NCBI GenBank assembly: GCA_017630975.1
Contig: JAGBUF010000366.1
Span: 1 to 6,229 of the forward strand
Reading direction: 5' to 3'
DNA from: Paraprevotella sp.
Lineage (GTDB): Bacteria > Bacteroidota > Bacteroidia > Bacteroidales > Bacteroidaceae
Length of the DNA: 6,229 nt
Both the position numbers and the translations under genes were made by a program. How positions within the stretch are numbered: the stretch's first letter is position 1; each line of letters opens with the position of its first letter. Shown in pieces: positions 1 to 6,229 of the stretch. The notes under the pieces were generated by a model. The model saw only the letters and a list, made by a program, of their open reading frames with translations. It was not told the origin of the DNA and did no database searches.

Positions 1-623
1 CCCAAACCGGCAGTTTCACCTTTGTGAGAGAAGTAAACACCATAAATTGTGTTCTTATCTGCATTTAATGCAACATATCCCCAAATTGCATCCCACAAGC
101 CCTTACCGGTAACCGGAATAACATATTTCAATTCACCATTGATGGTACATTCATATAAAGGCAAGTTGTTCTCAGAGATATTCTTATCTTCCACATTGAA
201 ACCTGCTTGGTCCTTATCGGCTCCTTCATTCACGATTTCACCTTGACCATTGATGATTTTATCAGCAACAACCACTTCTGCATAAGTGTTTTCAACTTCT
301 GCCTTTTCTACATCACGAAGATTTAGAGCTGCTAATATTTGACTTTTCTTGTCAATGCGAACATTTGCTGTTGACTGCGGTTCTAATGCCTTAGACACAA
401 ACGCCAAAAGGAAGGCAACAATGATAACCACTACACATGAATATATTATGGTATAAACATTACTGTTTGTATCAATTCCTTTCTTTTGAGGCTTATTCTC
501 ACCAACTTCTACAATTTCTTCAAATTCTGAAGCCGGAGCTTGGCATACAGGACATTTCTCAGGAGCTTTATCGCCCTCATGTATGTAGCCACATACTTTA
601 CATCTGAATTTCTTTGTAGCCAT
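1..623 (-). CDS. nqrC: Na+-translocating NADH:quinone reductase subunit C with N-terminal rubredoxin-like domain, partial at left edge
   Basis: NqrC is the membrane-anchored subunit of Na+-NQR whose covalently bound FMN passes electrons to NqrB on the periplasmic side. I translated it by hand: 207 complete codons from ATG at 623-621, with the 3' end missing. Residues 6-35 form a rubrerythrin-type rubredoxin domain with Cys8, Cys11, Cys24 and Cys27 (CKVCGY, then CPVC). A charged linker follows (about 36-54), then one hydrophobic helix (about 56-76). The NqrC globular domain comes next, ending in GKGLWDAIWGYVAL and GETAGLG, which closely resemble Vibrio NqrC. The flavin-attachment threonine (SGAT-type motif) would lie beyond the edge. 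The start is firm: no in-frame ATG, GTG or TTG lies between codon 1 and the helix, so the extra domain belongs to the protein. The gap to nqrB is 7 nt (TTAGGAT in the mRNA), so the two are surely cotranscribed and perhaps translationally coupled. Glycine after the last cysteine of classical rubredoxins is Gln28 here. Confidence 0.93.
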   Translation of the reverse strand, partial: MATKKFRCKVCGYIHEGDKAPEKCPVCQAPASEFEEIVEVGENKPQKKGIDTNSNVYTIIYSCVVVIIVAFLLAFVSKALEPQSTANVRIDKKSQILAALNLRDVEKAEVENTYAEVVVADKIINGQGEIVNEGADKDQAGFNVEDKNISENNLPLYECTINGELKYVIPVTGKGLWDAIWGYVALNADKNTIYGVYFSHKGETAGL

Positions 624-630
624 ATCCTAA

Positions 631-1797
631 TTATTTTTTAATTACACGTTTAGCTCGCTTATCAATGTTGCTTTGCACTACATAATAGTCAATCAACGGA
701 GCGAATAAGTTCATCAACAAGATGGCCAACATCATACCTTCTGGATAACCCGGGTTCAATACACGGATGATTACCGCCATTGCACCAATCAAGAAACCAT
801 AAATGTATTTACCGGTTTCTGTACGAGCTGATGTTACAGGATCAGTTGCCATAAATACTGCACCGAAGCAGAATCCACCTAATACGATGTGTTGGTACCA
901 AGGCATTTCTGCTGCCGCATTTCCTTCTGGACCCCATTGGTTAAATACAAGACCCATAATGATACCACCGGCAAATACGCTAAACATTGTTTTCCAACTT
1001 GCTACACCACTCCATAAAAGTATGATAGCACCGATGGCGATAGCAATTACGCTGGTCTCACCAATAGAACCGGGAATAAGACCTAACACTTGGTCGAAAG
1101 AGAATGTCGGAACAGCACCGGTTGCCACTTCACCTAAAGGAGTAGCCATTGTAAAGGTGTCTGGTAAATCATTTCCTAAACCGAAAATGCTTTCTTTTGC
1201 CACCCAACAAGCATCACCACTCATGGCAGAAGGATAAGAGAAGAACAAGAATGCACGTGCAATTAAAGCAACGTTAAAGATGTTCATACCTGTACCTCCA
1301 AAAATCTCTTTTGCAAAAATAACAGAGAATGCACAAGCAATAGCAATGATCCATAACGGACAGTCAACAGGTACAATCATCGGAATGATGATACCTGATA
1401 CCAAGTATCCTTCTTGAATCTCTTCATGTTTCCATTGTGCTACGATAAACTCGATACCCAAACCTACAATGTAGGAAACGATAATCTTTGGCAACACTGC
1501 CAAGAATCCGAATCCGAACATTTCGATGAATGATGCCTCTACGCCTGCAGCTGCATAATTCTGGTATCCAATGTTGTACATACCGAACAAAAGTGCCGGT
1601 AACAGTGAAATGACCACAAAAGACATGATACGCTTGCTGTCAATGGCATCATGCACGTTTACTCCGGTTTTCGAAGTCGTGTTCGGCACAAACAAGAATG
1701 TTTCAAAGCCGTCGAACACAGACTGAAAAGCTTGAAGTTTACCGCCCTTCTCAAAGTTCGGCTTTATCTTATCAAGATATTTTCTTAACGCGTTCAT
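631..1797 (-). CDS. nqrB: Na+-translocating NADH:quinone reductase subunit B
   Basis: NqrB (388 aa) is the large integral-membrane subunit of Na+-NQR. In the family it holds a covalent FMN and riboflavin, contributes to quinone binding and forms the likely Na+ path. The sequence has about ten hydrophobic segments. Blocks shared with Vibrio NqrB include EGYLVSG followed by IVPVDCPLW (129-149), FAKEIFGGTGMN (161-172), ARAFLFFSYP (180-189), MATDPVTSARTETGKYIYG (316-334) and NPGYPEGMMLAILLMNLFAP (348-367). The expected flavinylation site is DTFTMATPL at 213-221, with Thr219 as the probable FMN acceptor. The usual S/T-G-A-T reads T-M-A-T here. Length is slightly under the Vibrio protein (about 415 aa), mostly through a shorter N-terminal part. 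It lies 29 nt after nqrA and 7 nt before nqrC on the same strand. The mRNA leader ahead of the ATG is A/T-rich without a clear Shine-Dalgarno, as is usual in Bacteroidetes. Confidence 0.97.
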   Translation of the reverse strand: MNALRKYLDKIKPNFEKGGKLQAFQSVFDGFETFLFVPNTTSKTGVNVHDAIDSKRIMSFVVISLLPALLFGMYNIGYQNYAAAGVEASFIEMFGFGFLAVLPKIIVSYIVGLGIEFIVAQWKHEEIQEGYLVSGIIIPMIVPVDCPLWIIAIACAFSVIFAKEIFGGTGMNIFNVALIARAFLFFSYPSAMSGDACWVAKESIFGLGNDLPDTFTMATPLGEVATGAVPTFSFDQVLGLIPGSIGETSVIAIAIGAIILLWSGVASWKTMFSVFAGGIIMGLVFNQWGPEGNAAAEMPWYQHIVLGGFCFGAVFMATDPVTSARTETGKYIYGFLIGAMAVIIRVLNPGYPEGMMLAILLMNLFAPLIDYYVVQSNIDKRAKRVIKK

Positions 1798-1826
1798 TAT
1801 TTATATTAATTAATATTTCACATTTA

Positions 1827-3176
1827 TTATGCCATCTCTTTACGAAGCATATCCAATCCTTCGCGAACAATACGTTGCAATTCCAATTTAGAAGAATCGA
1901 CAAACTCACAAATTGCGAAGTCTTCCGGTGCAACCTCATAGATACCTAATGCCTCCATGCGGTCGATATCACCGGTGATAATTGCCTTGATTAACTGTTC
2001 TGGGAAAATATCCATCGGGAACACCTTATCGTATTCGCCAGACATGATCATGTGACGTTCACCACCCTTTACACGTGCATCTAATTTGAACTCTTTCTTG
2101 CACATCAAAGAACTTAAATAAGAACGACTGGTTGAATATTCATTAAAGCGTGGCATGATCCAACCGAACATTTCATGAACATCATCTCCTTCAGGGATTA
2201 CATTTACCTCAGTAGTGTGTGCTCCTAAGAAACCATCGGCAGTTGTCTTGACACCGGTCATTACATTACCGTTGATGATACGGATATTCTTGTCTGTAGA
2301 AACATTACCATTTACAAGTGTTGTCAATTGCTGACCTACTACCATCTTGCAATATGCAGGAGTATTCACTTCAGAACCTGCAAAAGCTATCACGCGTGTA
2401 AAATCCAATTGACCTGTGTTGAACAAATGACCGATGAATATCACTTCTTCTGCTCCAATTGTCCAAACTACTTCTCCCTTGTTGATGGGTGCAACATGAT
2501 TGATATGTACACCAACGTTACCTGCTGGAGCAGCACCATCATAAACAGTCACCTCTACATTCTTCGCTTCTTTCAAAGCTGGTGCTGTTTGGTTCTTATG
2601 TACTCCTAAGTGTGTAGGTGCCAATTTTGACAAAGCATCAAGACCTGTCTGGAAATCAGCTTCACGACCATACAGTACATACTCAAAGTCTGCTGACAAA
2701 GGCATTGAGTTAAAAGCAGAAACAAAAATAGCTTTCGGTGCGTCTGAAGGATTGGCTGTCACGTCATAAGGACGTTGCTTAAAGAAAGCAAAAAGACCGG
2801 TTTCCAACAGTGTTTCCTTCACTGCGTCACCAGTCATCTGAGCCAAATCTTTCTTCCCAAAATCTACATATTGTTGCTTTTCATCCGCCTCAATACGTAC
2901 ACTTAACACTTTACGACGTTCTCCTCGCTCAACTAAAGCGACCTTTCCGCTTACCGGAGCAACGAACTTCACTTCTGGAAGATTCTTGTCTACAAACAAG
3001 GCATCTCCCACCTTAACCGTGTCACCTTCTTTGACAAGCACCTTGGGTTTCATTCCGTTGAAATCATCCGGCAACATAGCGAATAAACCGGTTGATTGTA
3101 CAGAAATCAAATCCTTGGCGGGCTTGCCCTTGAGATTAACGTCAAGGCCTTTGCGTAATTTAATTACTTTTGCCAT
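1827..3176 (-). CDS. nqrA: Na+-translocating NADH:quinone reductase subunit A
   Basis: NqrA (449 aa, close to the 446 aa of Vibrio) is the cytoplasm-facing subunit of Na+-NQR. It carries no known redox cofactor and has been linked to quinone binding. It is related to the N-terminal part of RnfC. The start MAKVIKLRKGLDVNLKGKPA matches the family's short beta lead-in. Residues about 40-95 form the barrel-sandwich (lipoyl-like) fold, seen in GMKPKVLVKEGDTVKVGDAL and KFVAPVSGKVALVERGERR. The TGLFAFFKQRPYD block (about residue 126 on) and the FGWIMPRFNEYSTSRSYLSS block follow, ending with EVAPEDFAICEFV and a typical C-terminus (LREGLDMLRKEMA-like). No frame breaks are visible. It is the first gene of the operon, preceded by a TAATTTTG promoter motif at 3214-3221 and a roughly 30-nt leader. 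A full-length, undamaged gene. Confidence 0.97.
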   Translation of the reverse strand: MAKVIKLRKGLDVNLKGKPAKDLISVQSTGLFAMLPDDFNGMKPKVLVKEGDTVKVGDALFVDKNLPEVKFVAPVSGKVALVERGERRKVLSVRIEADEKQQYVDFGKKDLAQMTGDAVKETLLETGLFAFFKQRPYDVTANPSDAPKAIFVSAFNSMPLSADFEYVLYGREADFQTGLDALSKLAPTHLGVHKNQTAPALKEAKNVEVTVYDGAAPAGNVGVHINHVAPINKGEVVWTIGAEEVIFIGHLFNTGQLDFTRVIAFAGSEVNTPAYCKMVVGQQLTTLVNGNVSTDKNIRIINGNVMTGVKTTADGFLGAHTTEVNVIPEGDDVHEMFGWIMPRFNEYSTSRSYLSSLMCKKEFKLDARVKGGERHMIMSGEYDKVFPMDIFPEQLIKAIITGDIDRMEALGIYEVAPEDFAICEFVDSSKLELQRIVREGLDMLRKEMA

Positions 3177-3213
3177 ATTATAGGATTTAATAATTGATTT
3201 GTCTAAAACGACA

Positions 3214-3221
3214 CAAAATTA
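3214..3221 (-). promoter_or_regulatory. candidate nqr operon promoter, Bacteroidetes -7 element
   Basis: The minus strand reads TAATTTTG, an exact match to the Bacteroidetes primary sigma -7 consensus TAnnTTTG. It lies 37 nt before the nqrA start, so transcription beginning about 7 nt downstream would give a leader of about 30 nt. I see no good TTTG/TTG -33 element 19-21 nt upstream (around 3241-3243 the minus strand reads TTCTTCA), so the assignment rests on one motif plus position. In AT-rich DNA this motif can occur by chance. Confidence 0.45.
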
Positions 3222-3231
3222 CAGTAATTTT
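3215..3231. promoter_or_regulatory. 17-bp palindrome, possible operator over the nqrA promoter
   Basis: AAAATTAC-A-GTAATTTT is a perfect inverted repeat with 8-bp arms and a single central base (3223). One arm coincides with the candidate nqrA -7 element. A second, overlapping dyad, GTAAT-TTT-ATTAC, lies at 3224-3236, so the half-site ATTAC/GTAAT occurs three times in 20 bp. The placement suits a dimeric repressor or redox regulator of nqr. No regulator family is recognised, and the AT-rich composition lowers confidence. Confidence 0.35.
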
Positions 3232-3265
3232 ATTACATTGTGAAGAATTCTAAAAAGAAAAATTG

Positions 3266-3273
3266 TATTTTTG
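3266..3273 (+). promoter_or_regulatory. candidate tamB-like gene promoter, Bacteroidetes -7 element
   Basis: The plus strand reads TATTTTTG, an exact TAnnTTTG match. It would start transcription near 3278-3281, only about 12 nt before the codon at 3292 that best fits the protein start. The nearest upstream TTG (3238-3240) is 25 nt away, longer than the usual 19-21 nt spacing, so the -33 element is not convincing. If real, it excludes the GTG codons at 3240 and 3273 as translation starts, because they would not be transcribed from this promoter. Confidence 0.4.
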
Positions 3274-3291
3274 TGAACAAAATCAACGCCT

Positions 3292-4623
3292 ATCAGAAAA
3301 CTAAAGACCATAGTCAGAACTATCGTAGGTATTGTTCTCACTCTATACCTTCTTCTCGCTGCTACGATTTATGTTCCGGCAGTTCAAAAAACCGTAACAA
3401 AAGTCACAGAAAGCAACCTATCTAATTTATTGCAGACAGAAGTAAATATTGGAAAAATCACCTTGGGATTCTTTAATAGAGTAATACTTGATAATGTAAT
3501 CATTAAAGATAAGAATAACAAGGATTTATTAACTTCTGCACGCATATCTTGCAAGGTCAATTTATTAGAATTAGCAAAAGGTGTTATATCGATTGGAAGT
3601 ATTCAACTATACGGCTTTGACATCCAACTTTATCAAGAAGAAAATGAACAAGAAAATAACTTCAAGTTCTTGATTGATGCTTTCAACAAAGGCGAAAAAG
3701 AGTCAGAAACACCTCACATCAACATCAATTCTATTTTAATCAGACGCGGTAAACTGTCGTGGCACCAATGGAACCAACCACAGAAACAGGAAGGTTTTGA
3801 TCCGAACCACATTGTTATCAATAAAATCACCGGTACTCTCGCACTCAAAGAGTTGAGTAAGGATTCCATTCAACTGAATGTCAAGAAAATCAGTTTTGAA
3901 GAGCAAAGTGGCTTTGCATTGGAACAACTTTCATTCAAGATTCATGGAAATAAAAAGAATATCGCTCTTAATGATTTCAAATTAGTATGCCCCAATACAG
4001 CTATACAGTTCTCTCCCATTTTCATTCAAATCGACTACAAAAATGACACAACAAATACAAAAGAGACATTTAAGAATTTGGCTTTGAATGGAAAAATCGA
4101 GCAAGGCACAATCTCTCCATCTGATTTTAATAGTTTTTTCTCTCCATTAAGAAAGTGGCCTTTAGACAAACACTTGCAGCTCAACCTGGCATTTGAAGGT
4201 GATTTAGACCATTTGAATATCCCTCAACTGAAGTTGTATACTCAAAACAACGATTTCATGCTGGATGCGCCAACTGAAATACGGAACTTAATGTCTCAAG
4301 ATCAAATACAAGTCAGCACCAAACTCAGAAATTTACAGGTTCGTTCTACTTTTGGTCAACTTATAGCCCAAATTTTGACCGACGACATAAAAAATATAGA
4401 GCCATATATTAAAGCTATAGATTTCACCAAAGCCAATGGCAATATGAGCTATTCACCTGATGACATAAAAAGCAACTTGAATATTGCTACAGGATTGGGC
4501 GAACTTTCCATTTATGGAAGAGTGGAAAACAAAGAAAACATCACGATGAGTGCAAAAAGCAATGAAATAGATTTGTCCGCGCTTATCGGCCATGAAAAAA
4601 AAATGGGGAAAGACATCATTTGA
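3292..4623 (+). CDS. tamB: TamB/AsmA-like envelope protein, N-terminal part, with abnormal start and ending at a frameshift
   Basis: This is the first portion (about 443 aa) of a large TamB-like protein. Known TamB proteins are anchored in the inner membrane and extend a long beta-strand groove through the periplasm, serving outer-membrane protein assembly or lipid transport. The frame is open from 3277. Reading the ATC at 3292 as the start gives an RKLKTIVRT basic stretch, a hydrophobic helix (about residues 7-26) and YVPAVQKTV. The AsmA-like region NLLQTEVNIGKITLGFF...LDNVIIKDK...ARISCKVNLLEL follows. No ATG, GTG, CTG or TTG precedes the helix in frame. The first ordinary start, TTG at 3430, would delete the anchor and is not credible. 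The stop at 4621-4623 is premature: the protein continues in the next frame from 4604, past an A9 run at 4595-4603. The remainder is AT-rich Bacteroidales-like coding sequence. Family assignment is good; start and integrity are unresolved, and it may be a pseudogene. Confidence 0.8.
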   Translation: MRKLKTIVRTIVGIVLTLYLLLAATIYVPAVQKTVTKVTESNLSNLLQTEVNIGKITLGFFNRVILDNVIIKDKNNKDLLTSARISCKVNLLELAKGVISIGSIQLYGFDIQLYQEENEQENNFKFLIDAFNKGEKESETPHININSILIRRGKLSWHQWNQPQKQEGFDPNHIVINKITGTLALKELSKDSIQLNVKKISFEEQSGFALEQLSFKIHGNKKNIALNDFKLVCPNTAIQFSPIFIQIDYKNDTTNTKETFKNLALNGKIEQGTISPSDFNSFFSPLRKWPLDKHLQLNLAFEGDLDHLNIPQLKLYTQNNDFMLDAPTEIRNLMSQDQIQVSTKLRNLQVRSTFGQLIAQILTDDIKNIEPYIKAIDFTKANGNMSYSPDDIKSNLNIATGLGELSIYGRVENKENITMSAKSNEIDLSALIGHEKKMGKDII

Positions 4624-6229
4624 CATAAAAGGCGATGGCTTTATCGAGGGAAACCAATTAAAAGCTTTTGGCATTGATGGTATTCTCAACAAATTGACTT
4701 ACCAAAATTATGCTTATAAAAACATTACGTTCAACACATTTGGTAACGGCAACGAATATAGTGCCGAGGTGGAGATAGACGATAGTCATCTGCAATTGAC
4801 GGCTAATGCCACGACTAATTGGAAATCCGCATCAAAACACATCCATCTCGTTGCCGAGGTTGAACAGTTCAGACCTCATACCCTCAACTTGACGACAAAA
4901 CATCCAAACACGAATTTTTCCGGCGATATCCATGTAGGTTTTACAGGAAAGAATATTGAAAACCTTGAAGGAGAACTATGCATTGAAAATTTCAGAATGG
5001 AATCCGAGAAGGAAACATATACTCAATCCCCTATTACATTCTCGATAGAAAACGAAGACGAACAAAAACATTTATTGTTTGACAGCGACTTTATGAGCGC
5101 TGAGATTGACGGTACATTTAACTACACGTCATTAGCAGGGAATGCACAAATGTTCATGCATCAATATTTACCCAACATTATATCTGCGCCTAAAATTGTC
5201 AGCAAAAAAGCCGACGAACTTTCGGTATTCGTCAACATCAAGGATTTATCAATACTTGAAAAGGTCCTTGAGTTACCGCTCAAAATGGAGAAACCCGGAT
5301 ATGTCAGTACGTATTTCAATAGCGAAAACAACGACTTGAGTTTTAATGCCTCATTCCCGGCTATTGCCTATGATCAACAAAAAGCAAAGGACGTAGAGGT
5401 CATCATTGGGCAATCCAACGACTCAATTGAGTGTAATGTAAAAATCAATAAAGAATTCGGAAGCACACCCGTAGATATTGTGGTCAATGCAACCGGATTA
5501 GACGACCATATTAAAACGAATATTAATTGGTCCAATAAAATCAATGACCTATACAAAGGCCATGTTGGTATCAACACTTTCTTTACCCCCAATGAAAACT
5601 ATGGCAGAGACATCAGTTTTGTTATTGACCCGTCTGAAGTAACTCTCAATGATACGCTATGGAATATTCATCGCTCACAAATTGACATCACGGAAGAGCA
5701 CATCATTGTTGACAACTTCAAGATTGAAAACAAATCACACCATATCTGTGTCAATGGACAAGTATCGGATGACATAAACGATTCATTACATATAGACCTT
5801 AAAGAAATCAATTTGGAATACCTTTTTGACATCATCAATTTCAAGCCTGTAGATTTCGGAGGTATTGCCACAGGAAAAGCATATGCAGTAAATCTCAAGA
5901 AGAATGCAAAGATTGAAGGTGATGTAGATGTACAGGACTTTACTTTCAATCATGCTCATTTGGGAGATTTGGATATCATTATCGGATGGGGACAAGAAGA
6001 AAATGCCATCAATATCAATGCTCACATTGAGGACCCAAAAAATAATGGTATAACAGACGTAAACGGTGAGGTACGATTGGGTGCCCCTCCAAGAGGAGGA
6101 CTTGATTTAATGATTAATACTCAAAACATTGACTTATATTTCTTAAACAAATACACAAAGGAGATTTTCACCAACATGAATGGCAGGGCTAGTGGGTGGA
6201 CCAGAGTCTTCGGCCCATTCAAAGACATC
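4592..6229 (+). CDS. tamB: TamB/AsmA-like envelope protein, continuation in the next frame, partial at right edge
   Basis: This frame is open from before 4592 to the last base of the window, about 546 codons without a stop. Its sense begins at TGG 4604 (WGKTSFDIKGDGFIEGN), directly continuing the preceding frame's ...DLSALIGHEKK. The residues alternate polar and hydrophobic in short beta strands with many Asn, Asp and Ile, as in the TamB groove. The stretch near the edge, NMNGRASGWTRVFGPFKDI, resembles the repeat found in Bacteroidetes TamB homologues shortly before the C-terminal TamB domain, which must lie beyond the window. An ATG at 4592 (MKKKWGKTSF) could formally start this piece, and a gene caller may use it. 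It has no signal peptide or anchor, so an independent product would be stranded in the cytoplasm. I regard it as the second part of the gene at 3292, overlapping it by 32 nt. Confidence 0.82.
   Translation, partial: MKKKWGKTSFDIKGDGFIEGNQLKAFGIDGILNKLTYQNYAYKNITFNTFGNGNEYSAEVEIDDSHLQLTANATTNWKSASKHIHLVAEVEQFRPHTLNLTTKHPNTNFSGDIHVGFTGKNIENLEGELCIENFRMESEKETYTQSPITFSIENEDEQKHLLFDSDFMSAEIDGTFNYTSLAGNAQMFMHQYLPNIISAPKIVSKKADELSVFVNIKDLSILEKVLELPLKMEKPGYVSTYFNSENNDLSFNASFPAIAYDQQKAKDVEVIIGQSNDSIECNVKINKEFGSTPVDIVVNATGLDDHIKTNINWSNKINDLYKGHVGINTFFTPNENYGRDISFVIDPSEVTLNDTLWNIHRSQIDITEEHIIVDNFKIENKSHHICVNGQVSDDINDSLHIDLKEINLEYLFDIINFKPVDFGGIATGKAYAVNLKKNAKIEGDVDVQDFTFNHAHLGDLDIIIGWGQEENAININAHIEDPKNNGITDVNGEVRLGAPPRGGLDLMINTQNIDLYFLNKYTKEIFTNMNGRASGWTRVFGPFKDI
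4595..4603 (+). repeat. A9 homopolymer at the tamB frame junction
   Basis: Nine consecutive A follow CATG and precede TGGGG. With eight A the frame reads H-E-K-K-W-G-K-T-S-F-D-I-K-G straight through. With nine it reads H-E-K-K-M-G-K-D-I-I-stop. This is the simplest single-base change that joins the two long reading frames. It could be a sequencing or assembly error, a real frameshift, a phase-variable tract, or a site of RNA polymerase slippage. Confidence 0.85.

Follow-up and report, generated by a model that had tools for sequence, protein, structure and literature searches.

The nqrC frame of the window and its N-terminal domain

The window, which is the whole stretch of 6,229 nucleotides analysed here, contains an nqrC gene whose product appears to begin with a rubredoxin, and the question raised by this locus is whether the fusion is genuine and, if so, what a rubredoxin domain would do on a subunit of Na+-NQR. 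The window is an entire contig (C99, positions 1-6229) from a genome assembly of 383 contigs that is 70.7% complete. On its minus strand nqrA (1827..3176; NF003761, 652.2 bits, cut-off 450), nqrB (631..1797; NF003756, 512.9 bits, cut-off 414) and nqrC are consecutive in that order, as expected for an nqrC gene, and seven bases separate the nqrB stop from the nqrC start. The nqrC frame (3..623, minus strand), delimited as an open frame and by comparison with the full-length relative P0001, is cut by the contig end after 207 of about 285 codons. It therefore covers the rubredoxin-like domain, a linker, the membrane helix and the beginning of the FMN-binding domain (PF04205; 3..101, minus strand, matching positions 1-32 of the 77-position model, the match stopping at the contig end), and the FMN-attachment site of NqrC lies outside the window. 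The piece, ending at codon 207, scored 111.5 bits with TIGR01938 (nqrC; cut-off 144), and P0001 (285 aa, 94% identical to the window NqrC) scored 184.7 bits with the same profile. In P0001 the FMN_bind domain is complete (63.6 bits), the FMN motif reads DAITGATLTS, and the rubredoxin domain is present. Both P0001 (252.2 bits) and the unfused P0117 (258.6 bits) fell below the cut-off of 352 of the stricter NF003750. In another relative (L061) six nqr frames are consecutive, those of D to F being named from position and length. The window genome's own nqrF was not found among the contigs of this 70.7% complete assembly; since the genome is incomplete and the contig ends within nqrC, neither the missing nqrF nor the fact that NqrC is the only place of the rubredoxin family in this genome carries information.

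On the other side of nqrA, positions 3430-6229 (plus strand) hold what appears to be a single large gene with a weak DUF748 match, the product of which we take to be AsmA-like. It is broken into two frames, which adjoin at a homopolymer of nine A residues (4595-4603), indicating either a frameshift or an assembly error.

The translation of the nqrC frame begins MATKKFRCKVCGYIHEGDKAPEKCPVCQAPASEFEEI. Cys8 (600..602) and Cys11 (591..593) form a first CxxC, and Cys24 (552..554) and Cys27 (543..545), all on the minus strand, form a CPxC; together they fit the CxxCG-x11-CPxC arrangement of the rubrerythrin-type family RUBY_RBDX (PF21349), which matched residues 6-35 (519..608, minus strand) with 58.8 bits (cut-off 26.5, E 3.6e-16). 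The Rubredoxin family PF00301, in which the spacing between the cysteine pairs is long, reached 11.6 bits against a cut-off of 23. These four cysteines and their rubrerythrin-type family had been named in an earlier, sequence-only reading of the window, and both the translation and the profile match agree with it. That reading also held that no alternative start would leave the domain out. No ATG, GTG, TTG or CTG occurs in frame between Met1 and codon 65, and the only start-like codons after Met1 among the first 110 are 65 (GTG), 73 (TTG) and 76 (GTG), all within the membrane helix (about residues 57-79; 387..455, minus strand; helix 55-99 in the P0001 model, with NqrC profiles aligning from residue 50-53). 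Because the first later start codon is already inside the helix, no alternative start omits the rubredoxin domain. The further statement that the domain immediately precedes the helix proved incorrect, since the two are separated by a linker of about 15-20 residues that includes a KK stretch. This linker (about residues 36-50; 474..518, minus strand), with KK ahead of the helix, is taken to be flexible from its variable length among fused relatives (10-22 residues in 139 of the 150 measured, range 5-26) and from the P0001 model (mean pLDDT 85.2), in which residues 40-49 at the junction of domain and helix have a pLDDT below 50 and the linker is predicted to be disordered.

An AlphaFold2 model of window residues 1-45, computed with no alignment, has a rubredoxin-like fold (mean pLDDT 87.6). 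Its closest solved folds are those of the rubrerythrins 1ryt and 1b71 (E 1.5e-3 and 1.6e-3; TM 0.77; rmsd 1.1 and 1.4), no match in this structure search having an E value below 0.001, and the nearest solved chains by sequence are also rubrerythrins and rubredoxins. Pfam matched no diiron domain of rubrerythrin (PF02915) in either the window NqrC or P0001. One could envisage that the four cysteines hold zinc and that the domain is a structural or regulatory ribbon, which performs no redox chemistry and docks NqrC either to NqrF or to a different protein of the cytoplasm. The fold is common to rubredoxin knuckles and zinc ribbons, weak matches to ribbon families occur (for example Zn_ribbon_8, 13.2 bits, cut-off 34.4), and the domain is altered in a few relatives (L070, L082 and L217). 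However, the score with the rubrerythrin rubredoxin family is far higher, the nearest solved chains bear rubrerythrin or rubredoxin names, and the two or three copies on loose linkers described below are not expected of a brace. We consider a zinc ribbon distinctly unlikely; by analogy with its closest solved relatives, the NqrC domain would likely bind one iron rather than zinc.

Comparison with known NqrC, rubredoxin and rubrerythrin proteins

The NqrC described here shares its one membrane helix, its FMN_bind domain (complete in P0001) and the nqrB-nqrC order with known NqrC of Na+-NQR (7xk3 and 8a1t of Vibrio cholerae, and 3lwx, a domain from Parabacteroides distasonis), and the best structural match of the P0001 model is 3lwx (E 3.6e-19). 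The N-terminus is where they differ. Vibrio NqrC (7xk3) has just 19 residues ahead of the part aligned with the P0001 helix. The 3lwx chain, of 199 aa, starts at about residue 77 of P0001, downstream of the domain, and the extra domain present in the likely corresponding genus (g108, see below) is therefore not in the crystal.

To place the domain among rubredoxins, 98 distinct NqrC domains were compared with domains from other proteins, all classes being assigned by pattern; the 98 were selected by CxxCG-x11-CPxC and so cannot themselves test the four-cysteine pattern. Their mean identity was 0.62 to 43 domains of reverse rubrerythrins and 0.40 to 26 C-terminal domains of rubrerythrins; within classes it was 0.735 for the NqrC domains and 0.697 for the reverse rubrerythrins. 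Rubrerythrin itself belongs to the same Pfam family and has the same four-cysteine spacing, but carries the domain at the opposite end of the chain, and in all 26 of its domains position 10 is Asn and position 29 is His. This pair is not usual in NqrC, where 97% of the 98 domains have V, I or L at position 10 and 82% have Ala at position 29. PMC6033852 ties an Asn and a His close to the cysteines to the high potential of Desulfovibrio rubrerythrin, and gives rubrerythrin potentials of +185 to +280 mV; by our mapping, these residues correspond to positions 10 and 29. The same paper gives −110 mV as the potential of a short rubredoxin domain within an NADH:O2 oxidoreductase and notes that short rubredoxin domains are found in a wide variety of proteins, in which they are said to have no known function. 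For reverse rubrerythrins, values of +10 and −10 mV are given in PMC7482061, in which their NADH-linked reduction of O2 and H2O2 was assayed via an added rubredoxin domain and the reductase of that domain. Since the high-potential Asn and His are absent, the potential of the NqrC domain is predicted to be low, nearer 0 than +200 mV.

The resemblance to reverse rubrerythrin, which has an N-terminal short-spaced rubredoxin domain as well and which occurs in both fused and unfused genomes, is limited in two respects. NqrC has no diiron domain, and the charge differs at positions 7, 9 and 33, which are K/R, K and E in most NqrC domains versus I/V, T/S and K in reverse rubrerythrins. These distinct residues suggest a partner specific to the NqrC domain. 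The class F flavodiiron protein of Clostridioides difficile (FDP_F) likewise incorporates a short rubredoxin domain, here as a member of a chain beginning at NADH and flavin, as described in PMC6033852; it differs in having its own O2-reducing diiron site and in not being a member of an ion pump. Searches of the open-licence part of PubMed Central for NqrC or NQR with rubredoxin or rubrerythrin (including Prevotella and Parabacteroides), and for short-spaced rubredoxin architectures, yielded no description of the fusion among the papers listed; the one paper in which NqrC occurs along with rubredoxin or rubrerythrin, PMC5924567, mentions NqrC and rubredoxin apart. Precomputed Pfam lists place both domains in one protein, and so far as we found the fusion is visible in databases, yet nowhere discussed.

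Distribution of the fusion

Among the best 120 of 4840 homologues, all four cysteines are present in 117 (116 with CxxCG by pattern, and P0041 with CxxCS), which, together with the RUBY_RBDX score, upholds the proposal that a rubredoxin-like domain is fused to the N-terminus of NqrC. Of the other three, P0083 reads as frameshifted near its start and P0087 begins within the linker; P0117, an NqrC of 245 residues (73% identical over 78% of the query), starts normally and has no domain. Loss of the cysteines in close relatives, or a separate start downstream of them, had been named beforehand as evidence against a fused domain. The cysteines are kept by the close relatives listed, but unfused versions with a start of their own do exist, P0117 among them. 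Pattern matching in 170 loci recognised 112 NqrC-like frames, of which 57 carry the domain and 55 lack it, some genomes being counted twice.

A search with a fused NqrC as query covered 399 genomes of the window's family, of which 393 matched. The fusion was judged in the best 150 matches, one per genome, a set biased toward fused proteins because the query is itself fused; 93 of the 150 start at query residue 1-5 and 57 at residue 35 or later. Most genus codes are all-or-none for the fusion among the family matches listed. It is present throughout g1, the genus of the window (15/15), g227 (27/27), g215 (8/8) and g213 (6/6), and absent from g219 (0/16), g218 (0/8) and g217 (0/6); g224 (24/27), g4 (1/10) and g232 (1/2) are mixed. 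Genus g1 comprises 18 genomes, of which three (G575, G616 and G629) have no NqrC among these matches. Candidate fusions in L089, L105 and L115 were rejected as spurious tblastn extensions, L089 after its frame was read and the other two because their frames align with the query from residue 46-48 onward only. Seven selected NqrC genes (L237-L242 and L244) were checked for nearby remnants of a lost domain; no domain motif was seen in six, and L242 proved to be fused.

Mapping the distribution, as the sequence-only reading had suggested, revealed a broader spread than expected, over four family codes within the order to which the window belongs. Among the matches listed for 393 genomes sampled across this order, seven begin in the domain, namely that of the window genome and those of genomes in families f19, f42 and f105; two further matches (G389 and G233) were not counted as fused, their alignments crossing stops. 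Within f105 the fusion was found in 12 of 59 genomes, comprising all 11 of genus g108 and one of g199. Ten g108 NqrCs are 67-90% identical to PDB 3lwx, which is titled as the NqrC of Parabacteroides distasonis and so named in PMC4348036, and g108 is likely Parabacteroides. Of 296 genomes sampled across the phylum, 64 gave a match; 45 matches reached E 1e-25 or better, and among these the window's own is the only one to start in the domain, the other 44 Bacteroidota matches showing no such start. The NqrC of Prevotella bryantii, a relative that has been studied in detail, has 210 residues, according to PMC6560451, and to judge by this length is unfused.

Some NqrC proteins are extended at the other end. 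Three fused NqrCs of g215 (L217, L223 and L225) have long Cys-rich C-terminal tails, of 157, 108 and 113 residues past the FMN motif, which contain repeats such as CADCTKDCKDGKK and are predicted to be periplasmic; the L223 tail matched no Pfam family. Short tails containing cysteine occur in L143 (genome G413) and in the unfused L237-L239.

Evolutionary history and copy number

A tree was built from 82 NqrC sequences (43 fused, 39 unfused) with the rubredoxin domain excluded; these were drawn from 131 after six long-branch and 43 crowded or near-duplicate sequences had been left out. The fused or unfused state changes 13 times on this tree, gains being indistinguishable from losses. At least eight of the changes are forced by well-supported branches, and 11-14 changes were obtained over the bootstrap trees, in none of which (0/200) do the fused NqrCs form one group. 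A quicker tree of 126 sequences again gave 13 changes, nine of them forced. The unfused P0117 nests among the fused g1 sequences, and the domain is therefore not strictly fixed even in g1. Given such unfused close relatives, we regard the domain as real but dispensable.

The domain is single in 159 of 163 distinct fused proteins, double in three (P0085, P0086 and P0091) and triple in one (L224, from genome G481), the tandem domains being joined by long linkers. Over 4442 pairs, which are not independent of one another, mean identity was 0.73 in the domain versus 0.46 in the NqrC core. Identical domains of 36 residues occur in g108 (L230 and L232) and in G463 (L048), a genome of the window's family. 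At shared residues, the identity of third codon positions averages 0.67 when g108 sequences are compared with one another and 0.51 when they are compared with the rest; for the pair L232 and L048 the third-position identity is 0.75 and the DNA identity 92%. Slow evolution of the domain through constraint on the protein would be the simpler reading of these comparisons, the alternative being recent lateral transfer; neither is proved.

A possible accessory electron exit from Na+-NQR

We propose, with a probability of roughly 0.4, that the NqrC rubredoxin is a mobile, tethered carrier that is reduced by NqrF and feeds rubredoxin-dependent O2 and H2O2 reductases as an accessory branch. The known topology of NqrC would put the domain on the cytoplasmic side, where, with one iron bound, it would hang by its flexible linker at the foot of the NqrC helix. 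The NADH-oxidising NqrF would pass electrons to it, and a soluble rubrerythrin, a reverse rubrerythrin or a flavodiiron protein would presumably accept them, Na+-NQR thus doubling as a membrane-bound NADH:rubredoxin reductase in these anaerobes. Given the potential of NqrF, and the one that is likely for the rubredoxin domain, electron flow into the domain would be downhill. Such an exit would come into use when oxygen or peroxide appears, and the main path from NADH to menaquinone would be independent of the domain. In the Vibrio complex the NqrC helix touches TMH1 of NqrF and TMH3 of NqrD (PMC9325719), contacts that would place the domain at the foot of NqrF. The domain is conserved as a rubredoxin, loosely tethered, doubled or tripled in some proteins, and dispensable, and for these reasons a mobile accessory carrier is a better fit than either a brace or a relay that is obligatory; dispensability in particular makes an obligatory role in the electron path unlikely and favours an accessory branch.

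An obligatory or regulatory role within the pump deserves comparison at this point. The domain might relay electrons from the 2Fe-2S centre of NqrF to that of NqrD/E, or its redox state might steer the tilt of the NqrC helix and thereby tune pumping. In the solved structures a long gap, which NqrF flexibility may bridge, separates the two 2Fe-2S centres (PMC9325719); the NqrC helix tilts and shifts according to the redox state of NqrD-E, moving upon its reduction (PMC10643135); and most of the 98 domains share an NqrC-specific signature (positions 7, 9 and 33), as a partner inside NQR would require. On the other hand, NQR functions without the domain elsewhere, including in Prevotella bryantii (PMC6560451), and the repeated gains or losses, variable linker and variable copy number are ill-suited to an obligatory relay. 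Moreover, the likely potential of the rubredoxin domain lies above those of both 2Fe-2S centres. A shuttle or gate within the pump is thus unlikely in our estimate.

The accessory exit calls for acceptors, and candidates are widespread. In the 29 genomes surveyed, ODP-domain (flavodiiron-type) proteins scored above the cut-off in 28, the match in G018 being weak and the one miss being the incomplete window genome. Reverse rubrerythrins were called by pattern in 26 of the 27 genomes whose other rubredoxin-family loci were read (the exception is G059), and in the seven of these 26 that were submitted to Pfam both domains were found. Proteins of the rubredoxin family other than NqrC occur in 28 of the 29 genomes, including all seven unfused ones; being present in fused and unfused genomes alike, they show that the fusion does not track the presence of acceptors. 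In the operons of four relatives (two fused, two unfused) no extra frame of at least 100 aa was seen between nqrA and nqrF. With respect to donors, PMC5210497 describes NROR in Bacteroides thetaiotaomicron as one source of electrons for rubredoxin, others existing besides.

We also considered that the fusion replaces free rubredoxin, as the first 29 genomes had suggested, in which all six genomes without PF00301 were fused. Larger samples showed no such tie, and the idea was abandoned. In the window's family, free rubredoxin was missing from 18 of 93 fused versus 9 of 57 unfused genomes among the best 150 matches (Fisher p 0.66), in a scan that scored at most 17 candidates per genome and so may have missed a few rubredoxins. 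In f105 it was missing from 10 of 12 fused genomes versus 29 of 47 others (p 0.19), six of the others having no strong NqrC match. The missing tie to free rubredoxin, the lack of an operon partner in the four relatives, and the residues at positions 7, 9 and 33 that may point to a partner other than that of reverse rubrerythrin all weigh against the accessory exit.

Electrons might also run in the opposite direction, with rubredoxin-type donors feeding NQR, or the domain might protect locally by quenching peroxide or superoxide from the NqrF flavin. A redox domain at the foot of NqrF could run either way, and gut anaerobes encounter oxygen. Against entry, we know of no donor of sufficiently low potential that acts via rubredoxin in these bacteria; against local protection, no diiron site is attached, and the reduction of peroxide would need a partner. 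We judge electron entry or local protection quite improbable. Finally, a tethered rubredoxin might help to insert iron at the NqrD/E 2Fe-2S site, a task performed by NqrM in Vibrio. Membrane-tethered rubredoxins aid photosystem assembly, which offers an analogy. NqrM is apparently required in Vibrio (PMC12174285), and it was found in none of the 29 genomes. It was, however, also found in none of 14 controls, and the unfused genomes among the 29 are likewise without a match; its absence from the 29 is therefore uninformative. The fusion as a replacement for NqrM was dropped on these grounds, and such a role in assembly seems improbable to us.

Returning to the accessory exit, a wider and more tentative proposal is that many gut Bacteroidales have a Na+-NQR with two exits, one to menaquinone and one through the NqrC rubredoxin that powers rubrerythrins and flavodiiron proteins, the second exit possibly being added or dropped with exposure to oxygen. 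If this were so, the respiratory chain would itself drive the removal of oxygen and peroxide. Should the domain be redox-active, the Na+-NQR of these gut genera would have a cytoplasmic redox centre, its seventh, that is absent from the picture based on Vibrio, and the domain would be a candidate second source of electrons, so far unnamed, for the rubredoxin-type oxygen and peroxide defence of Bacteroidales. The repeated gains or losses and the natural forms with one, two or three copies provide ready-made comparisons, and Parabacteroides, a likely carrier genus, is culturable.

Three other arrangements of rubredoxin-like domains were observed in the course of this work. A 241-aa frame (L221, genome G436) is a rubrerythrin with a rubredoxin domain at each end, two RUBY_RBDX matches flanking PF02915. 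A different membrane protein (L220, genome G398) bears an N-terminal rubredoxin-like domain (31.2 bits) and a DUF2231 match of 24.9 bits against a cut-off of 26.4. In genome G041, a 67-aa frame with a rubredoxin-like domain (L184) lies directly upstream of a reverse rubrerythrin gene.
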